Origin: an uncultured Clostridium sp.
Lineage (GTDB): Bacteria > Bacillota > Clostridia > TANB77 > CAG-465
Assembly: GCA_948470565.1 (NCBI GenBank)
Contig: CAOKPF010000012.1
Span: 1-35,045 of the forward strand
DNA: 35,045 nt
Reading direction: 5' to 3'
Below the pieces are notes generated by a model. That model did no database searches and was not told the DNA's origin. It worked only from the letters and a program-made list of their open reading frames with translations. A program made the translations under genes and the position numbers. Of the stretch, positions 8,443 through 34,044 are shown piece after piece. Each line of letters starts with the position of its first letter. Positions within the stretch are counted from its first letter, which is position 1.

Positions 8443-8570
8443 TTAGTACACCTCCTTAAAACACAAAAAAGTTTTTGCTATACCCAAAGGTAATATAACA
8501 AAAACTATTACACGTTCTTATTTTATTACCTCGGTAGGATTTATGGATTATTCCACCTACTGTCTTGGGC
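8443..8570 (-). ncRNA. L10 leader (autoregulatory mRNA structure)
   Basis: On the minus strand the conserved leader core AGACAGTAGGTG is followed by CCTACCGAGGTA, the signature of the Rfam L10 leader. The L10-(L12)4 complex binds this RNA. Next comes a long hairpin (about 8470-8510; arms like AGTTTTTGTTATA and TATAGCAAAAACT) with a T run, resembling a transcription attenuator before rplJ. The leader starts inside the last codons of rplA. Confidence 0.85.
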
Positions 8571-9237
8571 TTATTTTTATTCCTGCACCCATTGTTGTTG
8601 ATACAGCAATAGATTTTAAATATGTTCCTTTTGCAGCTGCTGGTTTTGCCTTTACTATAGTTTCTAGTAATGCATCATAATTTTCTTTTAATTTATCAAT
8701 TCCAAAAGAAACTTTACCAATTGGACAATGTATAATATTATTTTTATCCAATCTATACTCTATTTTACCAGCTTTAATATCTGCAACTGCCTTTGCTACA
8801 TCCATTGTAACAGTTCCAGACTTTGGATTAGGCATAAGTCCTTTTGGACCAAGTATTTTAGCAATTCTTCCAAGAGATGCCATCATATCAGGTGTTGCAA
8901 CTATGACATCATATTCAAACCAATTTTCATTTTGAATTTTTTCAATCATGTCCATTTCACCTACAAAGTCAGCACCTGCAGCCTTTGCTTGTTCTGCTTT
9001 ATCTCCTTTAGCTAAAACTAAAACTTTTTTTGATTTACCTGTTCCATTTGGTAATACCATAACACCTCTAACTTGTTGATCTGCCTGTTTTGAATCAACT
9101 CCAAGCTTTATATGTATTTCCAAAGTTTCGTCAAACTTAGCTTTAGGCATTTTTAGTGCAAGTTCAATAGCTTCTCTAGAATCATAAAGTTTACCTTTTT
9201 CAACTAACTTAGCAGCTTCGCACATTCTTTTACTCAT
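8557..9237 (-). CDS. rplA: 50S ribosomal protein L1
   Basis: 226 residues, close to the usual length of about 230. It carries typical L1 signatures, including the [21 protein letters not shown] stretch near residues 123-143. It binds 23S rRNA at the L1 stalk and controls release of deacylated tRNA. It lies 45 bases downstream of rplK. The ending is slightly unusual: the last codons and the TAG stop (8557-8559) are also the first bases of the conserved L10 leader motif, so the tail residues (SPRQ) are constrained by RNA. Confidence 0.97.
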
Positions 9238-20386: not shown

Positions 20387-21703
20387 CTACTTATATATCT
20401 CCTCTATAATTTTTTCTATATTACCAATCATATATAATGGAATATTTACCATAAGTTCATCTTTTCTAAAATCTGACATTGAAGTTCTTACATTAACTTT
20501 ATTATCATATTTCTTTATAAAAGTTTTTAAACTTTTTGATTGCAAGTTTTCGTTTGATTTTACTTCTATTGGAACATTATTTTTACTTATTTGAGTAATA
20601 AAATCAATTTCTGAAGTTCCACTATCTGATGCCCAATAGAATACATCTAGTTCTGTACACTCCTTTAACTGACATAGTACATACTGTTCTGTTAAACTTC
20701 CTTTAAATTCAACAAATATATCATTTCCCTCAAGTAAAGTTCTATCGTCTATATTTGCCATTGCACAAAGTAATCCTACATCTAACAAATAAAGTTTAAA
20801 TGCCCCAAAATCCTGATATGTAGATAATGGAACTTTATTATCCTTTATTCTATTCACCTTATACACTAAGCCACAATCGATTAACAAAGATAATGCAATT
20901 TCATATTCCCTAGCTCTTGCACCTTTTTTTATTAAGCCATATATAAATTTTTTATTCTCTTTTGCAAGTTGTGTGGGTATATTATTCCATAACTGTCTTA
21001 TCCTAGGTACAATATTATCAGGTGCGTGTTTAGAAAAATCTTGTTCATATGAATACAACAATCTTTTTTGTATGGTTCTTACCTCATCTAAATTCATATC
21101 ATCTACATATGATTTTACTGCCTCAGGCATTCCACCAATGTACAAATACAATTTTAAATATTCTTTGTATTTTTCTCCAAATATTGTTGCAATATCTATA
21201 TTATTTTTCTGTATATTTTCTACTAGGTCTATTTTTCCAAAAGCTTGCAAAAACTCTAAAAAATTTAATGGTGTAAGTGTTAAAAAATCAACTTTTCCCA
21301 CAGGAAATGAAGTTCCCTCATGAATTGCCACTCCCAAAAGTGAACCTGCCGAAATAATATGATATTCATTTGCATTTTCACAAAAATATTTTAAGGCTTT
21401 TAAAGCTTTAGGCGTTTCTTGGATTTCATCAAAAATTATTAAAGTATTTTCAGGTTCAATATTAACTCCTGACTCTATCTTTAACCCCTGTATAATTCTA
21501 TCCAAATCAAATCCATTTTCAAATAAATTCTCCATTCTTTTGTTATCATCAAAATTTATATATGCACATTTTTCATAAAATCTTCTTCCAAACTCCTTCA
21601 TAATCCATGTCTTTCCTACTTGCCTAGCACCTCTAACTATTAATGGTTTTCTATTTTTTGAGCTTTTCCACTTTTTCAAATATTCTATTTTATATCTATA
21701 CAT
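20387..21703 (-). CDS. AAA-family ATPase with C-terminal DUF4143
   Basis: 438 residues. Walker A GARQVGKT is at 25-32 and Walker B LIIFDEIQ at 89-96. A winged-helix section follows, then the C-terminal DUF4143 region with SEIDFITQISKNNVPIEVK, which has the D...ExK spacing of a PD-(D/E)XK nuclease fold. These proteins are widespread in gut anaerobes and their role is not established. The start is the ATG after AGAGGGAT. It lies on the same strand as, and downstream of, the membrane-anchored protein pseudogene, separated by two 21-base direct repeats. A fragment of the same gene (residues about 44-88) recurs at 23946-24082. It looks intact. Confidence 0.85.
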   Translation of the reverse strand: MYRYKIEYLKKWKSSKNRKPLIVRGARQVGKTWIMKEFGRRFYEKCAYINFDDNKRMENLFENGFDLDRIIQGLKIESGVNIEPENTLIIFDEIQETPKALKALKYFCENANEYHIISAGSLLGVAIHEGTSFPVGKVDFLTLTPLNFLEFLQAFGKIDLVENIQKNNIDIATIFGEKYKEYLKLYLYIGGMPEAVKSYVDDMNLDEVRTIQKRLLYSYEQDFSKHAPDNIVPRIRQLWNNIPTQLAKENKKFIYGLIKKGARAREYEIALSLLIDCGLVYKVNRIKDNKVPLSTYQDFGAFKLYLLDVGLLCAMANIDDRTLLEGNDIFVEFKGSLTEQYVLCQLKECTELDVFYWASDSGTSEIDFITQISKNNVPIEVKSNENLQSKSLKTFIKKYDNKVNVRTSMSDFRKDELMVNIPLYMIGNIEKIIEEIYK

Positions 21704-21782
21704 TAAATATCCCTCTTCCCGTTATTTATTAATATATATTATCATTATTTTTACAAAAAGTAAATGAGTTTTCAATATTTTT

Positions 21783-21836
21783 CACATTTTCCAAACGACT
21801 TTTAGTCAATACTTACACATTTTCCTAACGACTTTT
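21783..21836. repeat. Two 21-base direct repeats upstream of the DUF4143 ATPase
   Basis: Copies at 21783-21803 and 21816-21836 differ at one base and have a 33-base period (about three helical turns). The core is AACGACTTTT after CACATTTTCC. They lie 80-130 bases before the ATPase start and could be an operator. Slightly diverged versions occur in the second copy at 24074-24094 and 24107-24127. Confidence 0.6.
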
Positions 21837-21847
21837 TACACACATAG

Positions 21848-22630
21848 TTAAAAATTTATAGAATTTGTGATAATATCACCAAAACTTTTACATTCATTCT
21901 TATATTCTATATCACAATTTAAACTTATTATTCTTAAATTTCCATTATCAGAAAATACTATCTCATAATTATATTTTTCATCACTAGAAGCTGATTTTAC
22001 AAACTCTAACACTCCTATTTTATGCTCTGCTTTTTCCAAAAAAACTACATTAATTTCATCTACAAACTGCTTATACGAATGTTCCATAACTCTTACATAT
22101 TCTTCAATTTCACTATTTTGCACTATTTCATTTTTTATATAAAAAGCAAGGTTTATAGTTTTATTTTCATTAACATATGCTTGAGTGGGCAAATTTTCAA
22201 TTTGGTATTTTAATTTTATTTCTTCATCACTCATTACCAAAAAATCTTTTGGTATATCTACTGAAAATGAACCAAAATTTTGAGTATAATGTGAATTATT
22301 ATTATTTATAACACTATTTAATGTATTATTTGTATCTTTGTTTTCATCATTTTTTTTAGTAATAAACTTCCCCGGGGCAAGCCCTCAAACATCTAGAAAA
22401 GATGTTTGCCTCTCTTCGAGAGCGGGGTATTCGCCCCAGCAAACAAAACTTCGTAATGTTTGCCTAATTTGTTACGACGCAAGCGTCGGGGAATTAAACC
22501 CGAAGAGATTAAAATTATTCTTCACTAATATAACCATAAAAACAGATACAATAATCACCATAATACTTAGTATTATTGCAAAATACTTTTTATTTAAACT
22601 CTTTCTACTATTTATACTACTATCTTTCAT
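21848..22630 (-). pseudogene. Membrane-anchored protein, copy A, interrupted by a 147-bp insertion
   Basis: The same gene as the intact copy at 24139-24774 (offset 2291, then 2144 after the insertion). The ATG at 22630 and its ribosome binding site are intact. After about 42 codons the frame enters the 147-bp element (22362-22508) and meets TAA after 11 more codons. The insertion is a multiple of three, so the downstream frame is kept, but a TGA near its far end also blocks readthrough. The last 129 residues are identical to copy B. A short product from an internal TTG (22240) is unlikely. Confidence 0.85.
22362..22508. mobile_element. 147-bp structured element, copy 1 (MITE/PATE-like)
   Basis: Inserted in the copy A gene; the unoccupied site is seen at 24652-24653. 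It is roughly half G+C, against about a quarter around it. A terminal pairing TTCCCC/GGGGAA encloses hairpins: CAAACATC/GATGTTTG, CTCTC/GAGAG, GGGG/CCCC, GCAAACA/TGTTTGC and CGACG/CGTCG. There is no coding capacity. Both copies are flanked by TTTTAA on the minus-strand 5' side, and there is no target duplication. A second copy with one difference is at 33850-33996. Confidence 0.8.
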
Positions 22631-22722
22631 CTATATTTCCTCCTATTTTCTAAAACTAATTATATCATTAATTACTATATATATATATCAATTATTAAAA
22701 GTTTAATACACTTTTTGTAAAG

Positions 22723-22751
22723 TTGACATATTATGTATATCATGATATAAT
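22723..22751 (+). promoter_or_regulatory. Promoter of the truncated radical SAM copy A
   Basis: TTGACA (22723-22728), 17 bases, TATAAT (22746-22751). Identical to the copy B promoter at 24867-24895. Confidence 0.7.
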
Positions 22752-22819
22752 CTAAATACCATATAACAATAAATTTACTATATTAATATATAGTATTGTA
22801 AAATTAAGGAGGAAATTTC

Positions 22820-22912
22820 ATGACAAAAAAAGAGTATTACGAAAAATATGGAAAATATGAAATAAAAAGAAAAGTAGGAAAATTATTATGCACCCTCATA
22901 AATACTACTATG
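22820..22912 (+). pseudogene. Radical SAM gene, copy A, 5' remnant
   Basis: An ATG after AAGGAGG begins MTKKEYYEKYGKYEIKRK, the same as copy B at 24964. Homology continues for about 90 bases, includes a one-base deletion near 22893, and then ends. No SAM-binding cysteines remain. Confidence 0.85.
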
Positions 22913-22929
22913 AAAAAAATATCTCTTAA

Positions 22930-23135
22930 TTACGAAAAAAGACACAATCCCCCTTTCCCCAAAAAAATGTCATCTTGACAAATTCTTTGGAAATGATATA
23001 ATTATATCAATAATATATTTATTTAAGAAGGAAAATACATATATACATCTTTTATTTATTGTTAATTAATAGCTAATTATAATCTAGTTGTTCTAATTTA
23101 TATATATATTAATTTGCTTTCTTTTATGTATTAAA
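22930..23135. other. Intergenic segment with an orphan plus-strand promoter
   Basis: TTGACA (22975-22980), 16 bases, TATAAT (22997-23002), followed by AAGAAGGAAAA, but no ORF starts there. No gene is seen. It probably once served a gene replaced by the remnants that follow. Confidence 0.45.
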
Positions 23136-23335
23136 TTAATTATAAAAATTGGAACCTAAATCGTTATATTCCACATTATTTTTTAACATATAGTAAATTG
23201 ATATTAACATTGAATGGGCTACTGCTACTGTAGTTCTATTTTTACCTTTTCTTCCATTAATCTTTAATACTGAGCATAGTAAAACGTATCTTTATTCTTT
23301 ACAGCTGAAATTCTGAATTTTGCTTGACTTTCTAC
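23136..23335 (-). pseudogene. IS110-family transposase, C-terminal remnant
   Basis: In one minus-strand frame the sequence reads NGRKGKNRTTVAVAHSML, ISIYYMLK, YNDLGSNFYN and a stop. Just upstream, in another frame, it reads AKFRISAVKNKDTFYYAQY. Together these match the C-terminal end of IS116/IS110/IS902 transposases (YxRLxGRRGKKRAxVAVAHSxL and YxDLGxxxY). At least one frameshift and an in-frame stop separate the parts, and the N-terminal RuvC-like domain is missing. Confidence 0.72.
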
Positions 23336-23365
23336 TAGGAATAGTTTATAGTTAAATTAACAAAA

Positions 23366-23530
23366 ACATTAGTGTCCGTTCTGAAAGAACGTAATCATTA
23401 TAATCCGATAGCCCAAAAAGCTATCGCTTTTCATTGCATATAATTTTTCATATACTATTATTACATTAGTGTCCATAGCTTTTTGCTATGCAAGTCATTA
23501 GTAAAAGGAGAAAATCTAAAATATCAATTT
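23366..23530. repeat. Hairpin cluster with a 12-base direct repeat
   Basis: ACATTAGTGTCC occurs at 23366-23377 and 23463-23474. Each copy directly abuts a hairpin: CGTTCT-GAA-AGAACG (23377-23391) and CATAGC-TTTTT-GCTATG (23474-23490). Two more hairpins are CGATAGC/GCTATCG (23406-23426) and a 9-bp stem GGAGAAAAT/ATTTTCTCC. Its origin is unknown. It could be non-coding end sequence of an insertion element. Confidence 0.5.
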
Positions 23531-23631
23531 TCTCCTTTATTTGATTAGCTGTTATTAATTCATCTAGTTCTTCAGTTACATTTTCTCAAGGCTATCAGAA
23601 ACTAAATTATAGTTAATATTTAACTTGTACA

Positions 23632-23945
23632 TTAATCTTTAGTTATTTTTTTCATTTTATTAGTAGTCATTGCCCAAGTAGAAATACATATATTTTTCAC
23701 ACTATCTTTATATATATAATATCTAGTTAAAGAAACATAAATAATCTTTACATTTTCTCCGAATTTTTATCTTATTATATTAGTAACAATGTTTACAGTT
23801 TCTCCAGTAACATGATTACCTTCTACTAACAATATACATTAATTTTCATTGATGGAATTATCTTTTAAATAATTTAATCCAATTTTAGTATCTATTCCAT
23901 GAGTTTCATGATTATGTTTTAAATGTATTGATAACATATCTATAA
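23632..23945 (-). pseudogene. Possible phosphoribosyltransferase-like remnant
   Basis: One minus-strand frame is open for about 100 codons apart from two stops. It contains LLVEGNHVTGETVNIVTNII, then KIIYVSLTRYY and STWAMTTN. The first part resembles a PRPP-binding loop (acidic residue, then TGxT after a hydrophobic strand). No start codon or ribosome binding site is clear. The family call is tentative; that it is a dead gene is more secure. Confidence 0.4.
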
Positions 23946-24082
23946 CATTAAAGTATTTTCAGATTGAATATTAGCTCCTTACTCTAGCCTTAACCCCTGT
24001 ATAATTCTATCCAAATCAAATCCATTTTCAAATAAATTCTCCATTCTTTTGTTATCATCAAAATTTATATATGCACATTTTT
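23946..24082 (-). pseudogene. DUF4143 ATPase fragment (second copy)
   Basis: Matches bases 21438-21573 of the intact ATPase, covering residues about 44-88. The start codon and Walker A are missing because a deletion of about 218 bases joins CACATTTT inside the gene to the CACATTTT of the upstream direct repeat. Confidence 0.8.
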
Positions 24083-24138
24083 CAAACGACTTTTAGTCAA
24101 TACTAACACATTTTCCTAATGACTTTTTACACACATAG

Positions 24139-24774
24139 TTAAAAATTTATAGAATTTGTGATAATATCACCAAAACTTTTACATTCATTCTTATATTCTA
24201 TATCACAATTTAAACTTATTATTCTTAAATTTCCATTATCAGAAAATACTATCTCATAATTATATTTTTCATCACTAGAAGCTGATTTTACAAACTCTAA
24301 CACTCCTATTTTATGCTCTGCTTTTTCCAAAAAAACTACATTAATTTCATCTACAAACTGCTTATACGAATGTTCCATAACTCTTACATATTCTTCAATT
24401 TCACTATTTTGCACTATTTCATTTTTTATATAAAAAGCAAGGTTTATAGTTTTATTTTCATTAACATATGCTTGAGTGGGCAAATTTTCAATTTGGTATT
24501 TTAATTTTATTTCTTCATCACTCATTACCAAAAAATCTTTTGGTATATCTACTGAAAATGAACCAAAATTTTGAGTATAATGTGAATTATTATTATTTAT
24601 AACACTATTTAATGTATTATTTGTATCTTTGTTTTCATCATTTTTTTTAGTATTAAAATTATTCCTCACTAATATAACCATAAAAACAGATACAATAATC
24701 ACCATAATACTTAGTATTATTGCAAAATACTTTTTATTTAAACTCTTTCTACTATTTATACTACTATCTTTCAT
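24139..24774 (-). CDS. Membrane-anchored extracytoplasmic protein (PsbP/Mog1-like pattern), copy B
   Basis: 211 residues. A basic N-terminus (SRKSLNKK) is followed by one membrane helix (about 16-36), an Asn-rich linker (about 42-65), then a globular domain beginning FGSFSVDIPKDFLVMSDEEIKLKY. The order of strands (a peptide with IP near the start, a charged helix near the middle and a final NxRxISLNC strand) resembles PsbP/Mog1-type proteins, but this is pattern-based. No lipobox is present. It is divergent from the radical SAM gene, with about 190 bases between starts. A ribosome binding site (GGAGGAAA) is present. The intact copy of the tandem pair. Confidence 0.72.
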   Translation of the reverse strand: MKDSSINSRKSLNKKYFAIILSIMVIIVSVFMVILVRNNFNTKKNDENKDTNNTLNSVINNNNSHYTQNFGSFSVDIPKDFLVMSDEEIKLKYQIENLPTQAYVNENKTINLAFYIKNEIVQNSEIEEYVRVMEHSYKQFVDEINVVFLEKAEHKIGVLEFVKSASSDEKYNYEIVFSDNGNLRIISLNCDIEYKNECKSFGDIITNSINF

Positions 24775-24866
24775 CTATATTTCCTCCTATTTTCTAAAAC
24801 TAATTATATCATTAATTACTATATATATATATCAATTATTAAAAGTTTAATACACTTTTTGTAAAG

Positions 24867-24895
24867 TTGACATATTATGTATATCATGATATAAT
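24867..24895 (+). promoter_or_regulatory. Promoter of the radical SAM gene, copy B
   Basis: TTGACA (24867-24872), 17 bases, TATAAT (24890-24895). An inverted repeat ACTATAT-TAAT-ATATAGT lies between the promoter and the ribosome binding site AAGGAGG and may be an operator. Confidence 0.75.
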
Positions 24896-24963
24896 CTAAA
24901 TACCATATAACAATAAATTTACTATATTAATATATAGTATTATAAAATTAAGGAGGAAATTTC

Positions 24964-26355
24964 ATGACAAAAAAAGAGTATTACGAAAAGTATGGAAAAT
25001 ATGAAATAAAAAGAAAAGAAGGAAAATTATTATGCACTCCTCATAAATACTATTCACCAGAAGAACTTGATGGTTATAAGATTAATGCATTTCCATTTCA
25101 GTACAATGTTTCATCTGACTGTTATAGAGAGCTTTTAGTATCATATATTCCAATAATCCCATTACTTGAAAAGCAGGTTAGATTCAAAGATGCTGACTAT
25201 ATTTTATATACTCATGGCTATGCCAGATGTGACGATTTAACGGATTTAGTGTGTAATAATTTAAGAGAAATTGCAAATCACAGAAAAGAAGGCGCAGAAA
25301 TCATTGTTGTTGGAAAATCTGCTAATGCTAAATATATTTTAAATGGAGAAATTAACAATATCACTTTTGTAGGAGATCATTATGCAGAATATTTAGGCAA
25401 ACGATTTGGATTTCCTGAAATAAAAGAACAATATGTAGTATATGATGATTATTTAAAACAGCTTAATGTTTGGCCTGTTGACGGTTGTAATAACAAATGT
25501 GGTTTTTGTAGACGTAGTTATATGCACATTCGTTATGAGAGTCAAAAATATACTTTTATAAAACAACAACTTGATTGGTATCAAGAAAATGAACCTGAGA
25601 AAATGGAACACATAAGCCTAAGAGCTGAAAATTTGACTGAATATGGTATTGACTTATATGGAAAACCTATGCTTCACCGTATAATATCACTAATAAATTC
25701 ATACCAAGCTGTAAAAAAAATAACTATTGATATAGGTATGTGCATTGGCGAAATTACACCTGAAATACTTGATTCACTTTGTAATGCCAAGAAAATAGTT
25801 AGTATAGGACTAAATATTGAAACAGGTAGTAATAGATTACTTAAACTTATAGGAAAAAAGCATACCTGCCAACAAGTGATTAATGTATTTACTAAGCTTA
25901 GAGATGCTAATCCAAATATTGCCATAGAAAGTACGATAATGATTGGACTTCCTACTGAAACAATTTAGGATATGTATCTACTAGCAAAATTAATTCATAA
26001 AGTATGGCCTGACTATATACACTTAAATTACTATATACATTCACCACGCGCAACTTTAAACAAATATCCTCAACTAAGTGAAAGCTTAAGGGAATATCAT
26101 CTAAAAATATTTCTAAATAGACTAAGGGAACCTAATGAAAAATATAAATATTTAGAATTACACCCAGTTATTAATATTCGACATTACTTTATATGGGGAA
26201 AAAGAAAAAGCTCAAGAAAATGGATTAAAGAGCAAATAAGAATTGATGAAAAAAATAGTATAACTAACAATTTTCCAATTAATATGCCATTTAAACGTAT
26301 AATGTATATATATCACGAAAGTGGATATAAGAAGCTCTGGAAAGATTATTTCTAA
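24964..26355 (+). pseudogene. Divergent MiaB-like radical SAM protein, interrupted by one TAG
   Basis: Codons 1-334 and a further 128 codons are in the same frame, separated only by TAG at 25966-25968 within GLPTETI-stop-DM, where family members read ET-x-ED/EM. The radical SAM cluster motif is C175-x3-C179-x2-C182 (CNNKCGFC). The SAM-domain segments NIETGSNRLLKLIGKKHT and ESTIMIGLPTET resemble MiaB/RimO/MtaB methylthiotransferases. An N-terminal domain of methylthiotransferase type is suggested by C53 and C89, but the usual third cysteine position looks like G117-K118. No TRAM domain is seen. One nonsense change probably kills the gene; natural readthrough or a sequencing error are alternatives. 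Confidence 0.8.
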
Positions 26356-33849: not shown

Positions 33850-33996
33850 ATAAACTTCCCCGGGGCAAGCCCTCAAACATCTAGAAAAGATGTTTGCCTC
33901 TCTTCGAGAGCGGGGTATTCGCCCCAGCAAACAAAACTTCGTAATGTTTGCCTAGTTTGTTACGACGCAAGCGTCGGGGAATTAAACCCGAAGAGA
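33850..33996. mobile_element. 147-bp structured element, copy 2
   Basis: Identical to 22362-22508 except for one base (TGCCTAGTTT instead of TGCCTAATTT). The flanks differ beyond TTAAAA on the right and a TA on the left. Intergenic here. Confidence 0.85.
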
Positions 33997-34044
33997 TTAA
34001 AAAATCCATAGGACGAATTTTTCTAATTTTTCGTCCTATAAATT

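Follow-up and report, generated by a model that had tools for sequence, protein, structure and literature searches.

A homogeneous 147-bp element, very probably a non-autonomous IS200/IS605-family transposon, in the genome of an uncultured Clostridium species

The window considered here (the whole stretch of DNA that was analysed, 35,045 nucleotides) carries two copies of a 147-bp element, which is very probably a non-autonomous IS200/IS605-family transposon (a palindrome-associated transposable element or PATE, MITE-like) that is moved in trans, as single-stranded DNA, by a Y1 TnpA. Elements of this kind are already known, and the present one, which is homogeneous and recently active, displays their features in an unusually clean and complete form. 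Within an AT-rich lineage that has been studied little, it is a clean example from nature of very probable single-strand transposition by an element without genes, with near-identical copies, empty sites, a single fixed target and a replication-strand bias without exceptions.

The element, its copies and its empty sites

Copy A of the element occupies positions 22362-22508 (minus strand) within a minus-strand membrane-protein gene, and a second copy, which has the consensus sequence, is located at 33850-33996 (minus strand). The duplicate of the membrane-protein gene is uninterrupted (24139-24774, minus strand, 211 aa), and in it the empty site is seen as a junction between positions 24652 and 24653. 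These exact boundaries and the empty junction, claimed in the first-pass annotation, were all reproduced exactly, save that the boundary can be shifted by one T: in every copy the element starts with a T, and another T stands immediately after its last base. Comparison of A with B gives 3 differences in 579 bp for the left arm of the duplication and an identity of 98.75% in 401 bp for the right arm. On the minus strand, the sequence of the element extends from TCTCTTCGGGTTTAATTCCCCG to GGGGAAGTTTAT; the pentanucleotide TTTAA stands directly before it (22509-22513 for copy A and 33997-34001 for the second copy, both minus strand) and a T, viz. the +1 base of the target, directly after it (22361, minus strand, for copy A), as is the case in 15 of the 15 complete copies of the genome. 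The single difference described earlier between the two window copies was found at element position 42 (C to T) and is private to the copy at 22362, and the reported richness in G+C also stands (48% for the element versus 26.5% for the window). The earlier statement that the element brings in stops is correct for the frame of the host gene, but antisense frame 0 is open throughout; its 49 codons are the longest open stretch within the 147 bp, and a transposase gene is absent. An Rfam search gave no match at the element and a tRNA/tmRNA search found none. The segmental duplication itself (21500-25300) covers the membrane-protein gene together with the first part of the gene next to it, at a spacing of about 2.1-2.5 kb, and this neighbour gene is truncated in copy A. 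Elsewhere in the window, an ordinary ribosomal protein L10 leader (RF00557) is present at 8456-8587.

A search of the species' own genome (a draft of 2.1 Mb in 126 contigs, 96.6% complete) identified 15 full-length copies and one truncated where its contig ends (C68), together with several matches to the ends only. Twelve of the 15 complete copies are identical, copy A and another copy show one change each (private in copy A), and one older copy shows seven. The flanks of the copies are unrelated to each other, and no target duplication is present in any of the 15 copies or in the empty sites. This pattern is far beyond chance. The recent movement in trans proposed in the first-pass annotation, which named no class of element, is thus supported by 15 exact 147-bp copies, 12 of them identical, with unrelated flanks and continuous empty sites; the two outcomes that would have spoken for another origin, viz. 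only two copies in the genome or long flanks shared between copies, were both absent. One contig (C32; L068, 5639-18075) carries three copies in the same orientation within 12.5 kb.

Empty sites were sought within the genus using the joined flanks of five intragenic copies, and the comparison of occupied and empty sites that had been called for revealed continuous empty sites in paralogues as well as congeners. Sites that align without the 147-bp gap were found for L003 (congener G015), for L009 (G018, G013 and G023, and contig C62 of the own genome), for L004 (G016) and for L011 (own contig C40). At the protein level, a PspC domain (PF04024) and a phage integrase domain (PF00589) are continuous across the joined sites. 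Because the alignments lack the 147 bp and the protein domains run through the joined sites, the insertions are precise. Excision by Y1 enzymes is likewise precise, and due to this the duplicate gene in the window is compatible both with a gain in copy A and with a loss from copy B. One example of a broken host gene is that with the PspC domain (copy at L004, 1501-1647), where the joined site restores the full domain; for annotation purposes, the element accounts for several broken genes in this genome, viz. the PspC-domain gene, a cyclase-like gene and the membrane-protein copy.

The effect of the insertion upon the host gene depends on its orientation. Seven sense-orientation intragenic insertions (five checked, and two more at shorter joined sites) bring in stops in both of the frames that are compatible with the target, whereas three antisense intragenic copies (L007, L009 and L013) are read through in a single open frame, which adds 49 codons. 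One of the latter (L013, 1501-1647) forms an in-frame C-terminal extension of a Spo0A_C-domain protein. A preference for codon phase was considered and rejected as unproven: TTAAA permits only two open frames, so that three of three antisense copies would fall in frame by chance in about 1 of 8 cases.

Ends of the element and related tnpA elements

Terminal inverted repeats are absent from the element and, as judged from the sequence and from DNA folding, hairpins are located near both of its ends; its folding is strong on both strands (z about -3.7 and -4.2). All of the following features are on the minus strand. The left end (22469-22508) is a stretch of 40 bp that is common to tnpA-bearing IS elements of the same genome, and it contains the hairpin CGACGC-TT-GCGTCG (22475-22488). 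An internal hairpin is located at 22439-22463. It is followed by the right-end compound hairpin (22370-22427), in which three small hairpins can be enclosed by an outer stem CCCC/GGGG; this structure was obtained by a constrained DNA fold, which lies within 0.4 kcal/mol of the unconstrained optimum. The tetranucleotide TTAT at the right terminus (22362-22365) is the putative right cleavage site. On the 5' side of the two end hairpins are found AATT (22492-22495), which complements the target TTAA position by position, and AATA (22428-22431), which complements the terminal TTAT in the same manner. By analogy with IS608 (PMC5934647), these two motifs match the idea of guide and cleavage sequences and they are regarded here as putative guides.

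The same 40 bp also begin elements of 576 bp at C28 and C3 and of 577 bp at C43, and a diverged IS element of this group is present at C52. All four carry a Y1 (IS200) tnpA (PF01797) related to PDB 2xm3 and 2a6m, and they share with the 147-bp element the TTTAA target and the terminal TTAT. Their right termini read GTTTAT|T (ATTTAT|T at C52), and a terminal AGTTTAT|T is common to the 147-bp element and the IS elements that have its left 40 bp. However, the right hairpins are alike only in part: that of the IS elements is simple (CCCCGTTGC-TT-GCGGCGGGG), whereas the corresponding CCCC/GGGG outer stem of the 147-bp element bounds the larger compound hairpin. Because the right end of the element differs in this way from those of the IS elements, any of them is only a candidate for its exact helper. 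These partner IS elements are tnpA-only, and the TnpB domain (PF07282) had no match anywhere in the own genome, with control genomes positive.

The tnpA genes at C28, C3 and C43 share the same extra base, a one-base frameshift before the catalytic tyrosine; that at C52 is also shifted, in the opposite direction, and no intact tnpA of this group is present in the 96.6% complete draft assembly. The simplest reading is that the helper has been lost or is situated in an assembly gap, and an intact helper was probably present until recently. Because all three of them share the same frameshift, the IS elements at C28, C3 and C43 (L018, L019 and L021) may have moved after their inactivation. From the same observation, viz. 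a shared one-base shift in elements that have nonetheless apparently moved, it could be proposed that the helper is a two-frame tnpA whose product depends on a frameshift immediately upstream of the catalytic tyrosine, and that the element is tuned so that antisense insertions add an in-frame peptide of 49 residues and the gene is not killed. This combined proposal is highly improbable in our estimation, and programmed frameshifting of tnpA is judged unlikely, given the opposite direction of the shift in the C52 copy.

Strand bias, proposed mechanism and rival explanations

The strongest mechanistic evidence is provided by the strand bias. In 16 of 16 copies, distributed on 13 contigs, the top strand of the element (the minus strand of the window) is the G-rich, positive-skew strand, both by local and by whole-piece GC skew. 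The four IS elements have the same orientation by whole-piece skew (one is neutral by local skew), as do three old fragments relative to GC skew. The target TTTAA is slightly rarer on the positive-skew strand (1723 versus 1882 occurrences). In organisms with such skew, the G-rich strand is the lagging-strand template; the top strand of the element is thus the lagging-strand template as assigned by GC skew in a draft genome with an unmapped origin. A bias of this kind is a signature of single-strand (Y1 HUH) transposition, and use of the lagging-strand template is known for IS608 and ISDra2 (PMC5371812).

The proposed sequence of events is as follows. The element combines an IS200-type left end with a short core rich in hairpins and a right end, and TnpA (Y1 HUH) from a tnpA-only IS200-like element would act upon it in trans. 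The enzyme would recognise the minus-strand (top-strand) subterminal hairpins when this strand, as lagging-strand template, is single-stranded, peel the element out, and insert it 3' of TTTAA (TTTAA|T) without a target duplication.

Other explanations account for parts of these results. If the element were a classical MITE of a DDE transposon, it would similarly be short, of high copy number, near-identical among copies and mobilised in trans; however, such an element has terminal inverted repeats and a target duplication and moves by double-strand cut-and-paste. Here the ends differ (TCTCTTCGGG versus ATAAACTTCC, the latter being the reverse complement of the other end) and no copy or empty site shows a target duplication, by which the DDE reading is already refuted; the complete strand bias and the TTTAA left flank further indicate Y1 transposition, and we regard a DDE origin as extremely improbable. 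A REP/REPIN-type repeat spread by a domesticated TnpA-REP (RAYT) is very unlikely, even though such repeats are also palindromic, dispersed and tied to Y1 enzymes: the GTAG-type tag is absent 5' of the hairpins, where AATT and AATA are present instead, many copies are intragenic with sharp 147-bp ends at TTTAA|T, and the end is common to tnpA elements that are themselves multicopy.

The strong folding on both strands, the many intragenic copies and the location of the three checked antisense copies in the only stop-free frame could also suggest a structured RNA or a splicing or bypass element that spreads and whose removal from the mRNA, or whose skipping, would keep the interrupted genes functional. 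However, Rfam shows nothing at the element, IS200 ends are expected to form hairpins anyway, the sense copies have stops in both target-compatible frames and the in-frame state of all three antisense copies is of the modest chance given above (about 1 in 8), so that this explanation deserves hardly any credence. TTTAA is the motif of ISAam1. It is often mentioned in work on TnpB adjacent motifs (PMC11043419), and the element is structured, as would be a decayed omega-RNA unit (IS605 right-end RNA) that serves a TnpB nuclease; but the TnpB domain is found nowhere in this genome and the partner IS elements carry tnpA only, which leaves such a unit with next to no likelihood.

Relation to known systems and distribution beyond the genome

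The reading of the element as a non-autonomous, Y1-mobilised transposon agrees with several described systems. Like the PATEs of Haloquadratum walsbyi (PMC3119063), it lacks inverted repeats and target duplication, has near-terminal palindromes, is too short to encode a transposase and has ends related to IS605-type transposons. In Haloquadratum, new insertions occur although nearly all tnpA genes are pseudogenes (PMC3119063), and the puzzle of new insertions despite broken tnpA is similar here. However, the Haloquadratum PATEs are archaeal and often linked to tnpB elements, whereas the present element is related to tnpA-only IS200 elements, uses TTTAA as its target and is nearly homogeneous in sequence. 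Like IS608 and ISDra2, it is inserted on the 3' side of a constant tetra- or pentanucleotide, carries guide sequences (putative here) beside its subterminal hairpins, shows the lagging-strand bias (PMC5371812) and has a preference for the +1 base, which is T here and is also described for ISDra2 (TTGAT|G) and IS608 (PMC5934647). Unlike the present element, these two encode TnpA and TnpB, and their targets and hairpins differ.

No match to the element was found in any of 27 congeneric species, and full copies of the 147-mer were limited to the own genome among 385 genomes drawn from the order, as was the left end among 391 genomes drawn from the class. Phage records gave no match, the left end and a close tnpA were both absent from viral contigs, and a literature search for the left-end sequence found no mention of it. 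The sole match in plasmid records is a 36-bp end match in Candidatus Megaera. Autonomous relatives are found in tnpA-only IS200-type elements that reside on plasmids of the cyanobacteria Kovacikia minuta and Pseudanabaena and of Candidatus Megaera; their TnpA proteins are 59-63% identical and they have the same end design, as seen in the left end after TTTAA (TCTCTTCGGGTCAATTCCCCGCCGC.. in Kovacikia) and in the right hairpin (AATACCCCGCTGCTTGCGGCGGGG.. in Pseudanabaena and Megaera). These elements carry an intact tnpA, whereas the 147-bp element has none and has an enlarged right-end hairpin.

The left end is more widely distributed. The exact 27-mer TTTAATCTCTTCGGGTTTAATTCCCCG is present in a Parachlamydiaceae MAG, Nitrosomonas, Nitrosospira, a Desulfobacterium, a Paraglaciecola MAG and Bacterium D16-36, and this 27-bp left end is identical across several phyla (L030-L036). 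Its conservation across very distant phyla makes the tnpA-only group to which the ends of the element belong a candidate single-strand integration system that would be compact and broadly portable. In these genomes, too, the 27-mer lies in short, gene-less stretches of about 50-130 bp (ends read by eye) without an adjoining tnpA, for example in the Parachlamydiaceae MAG and in Nitrosospira.
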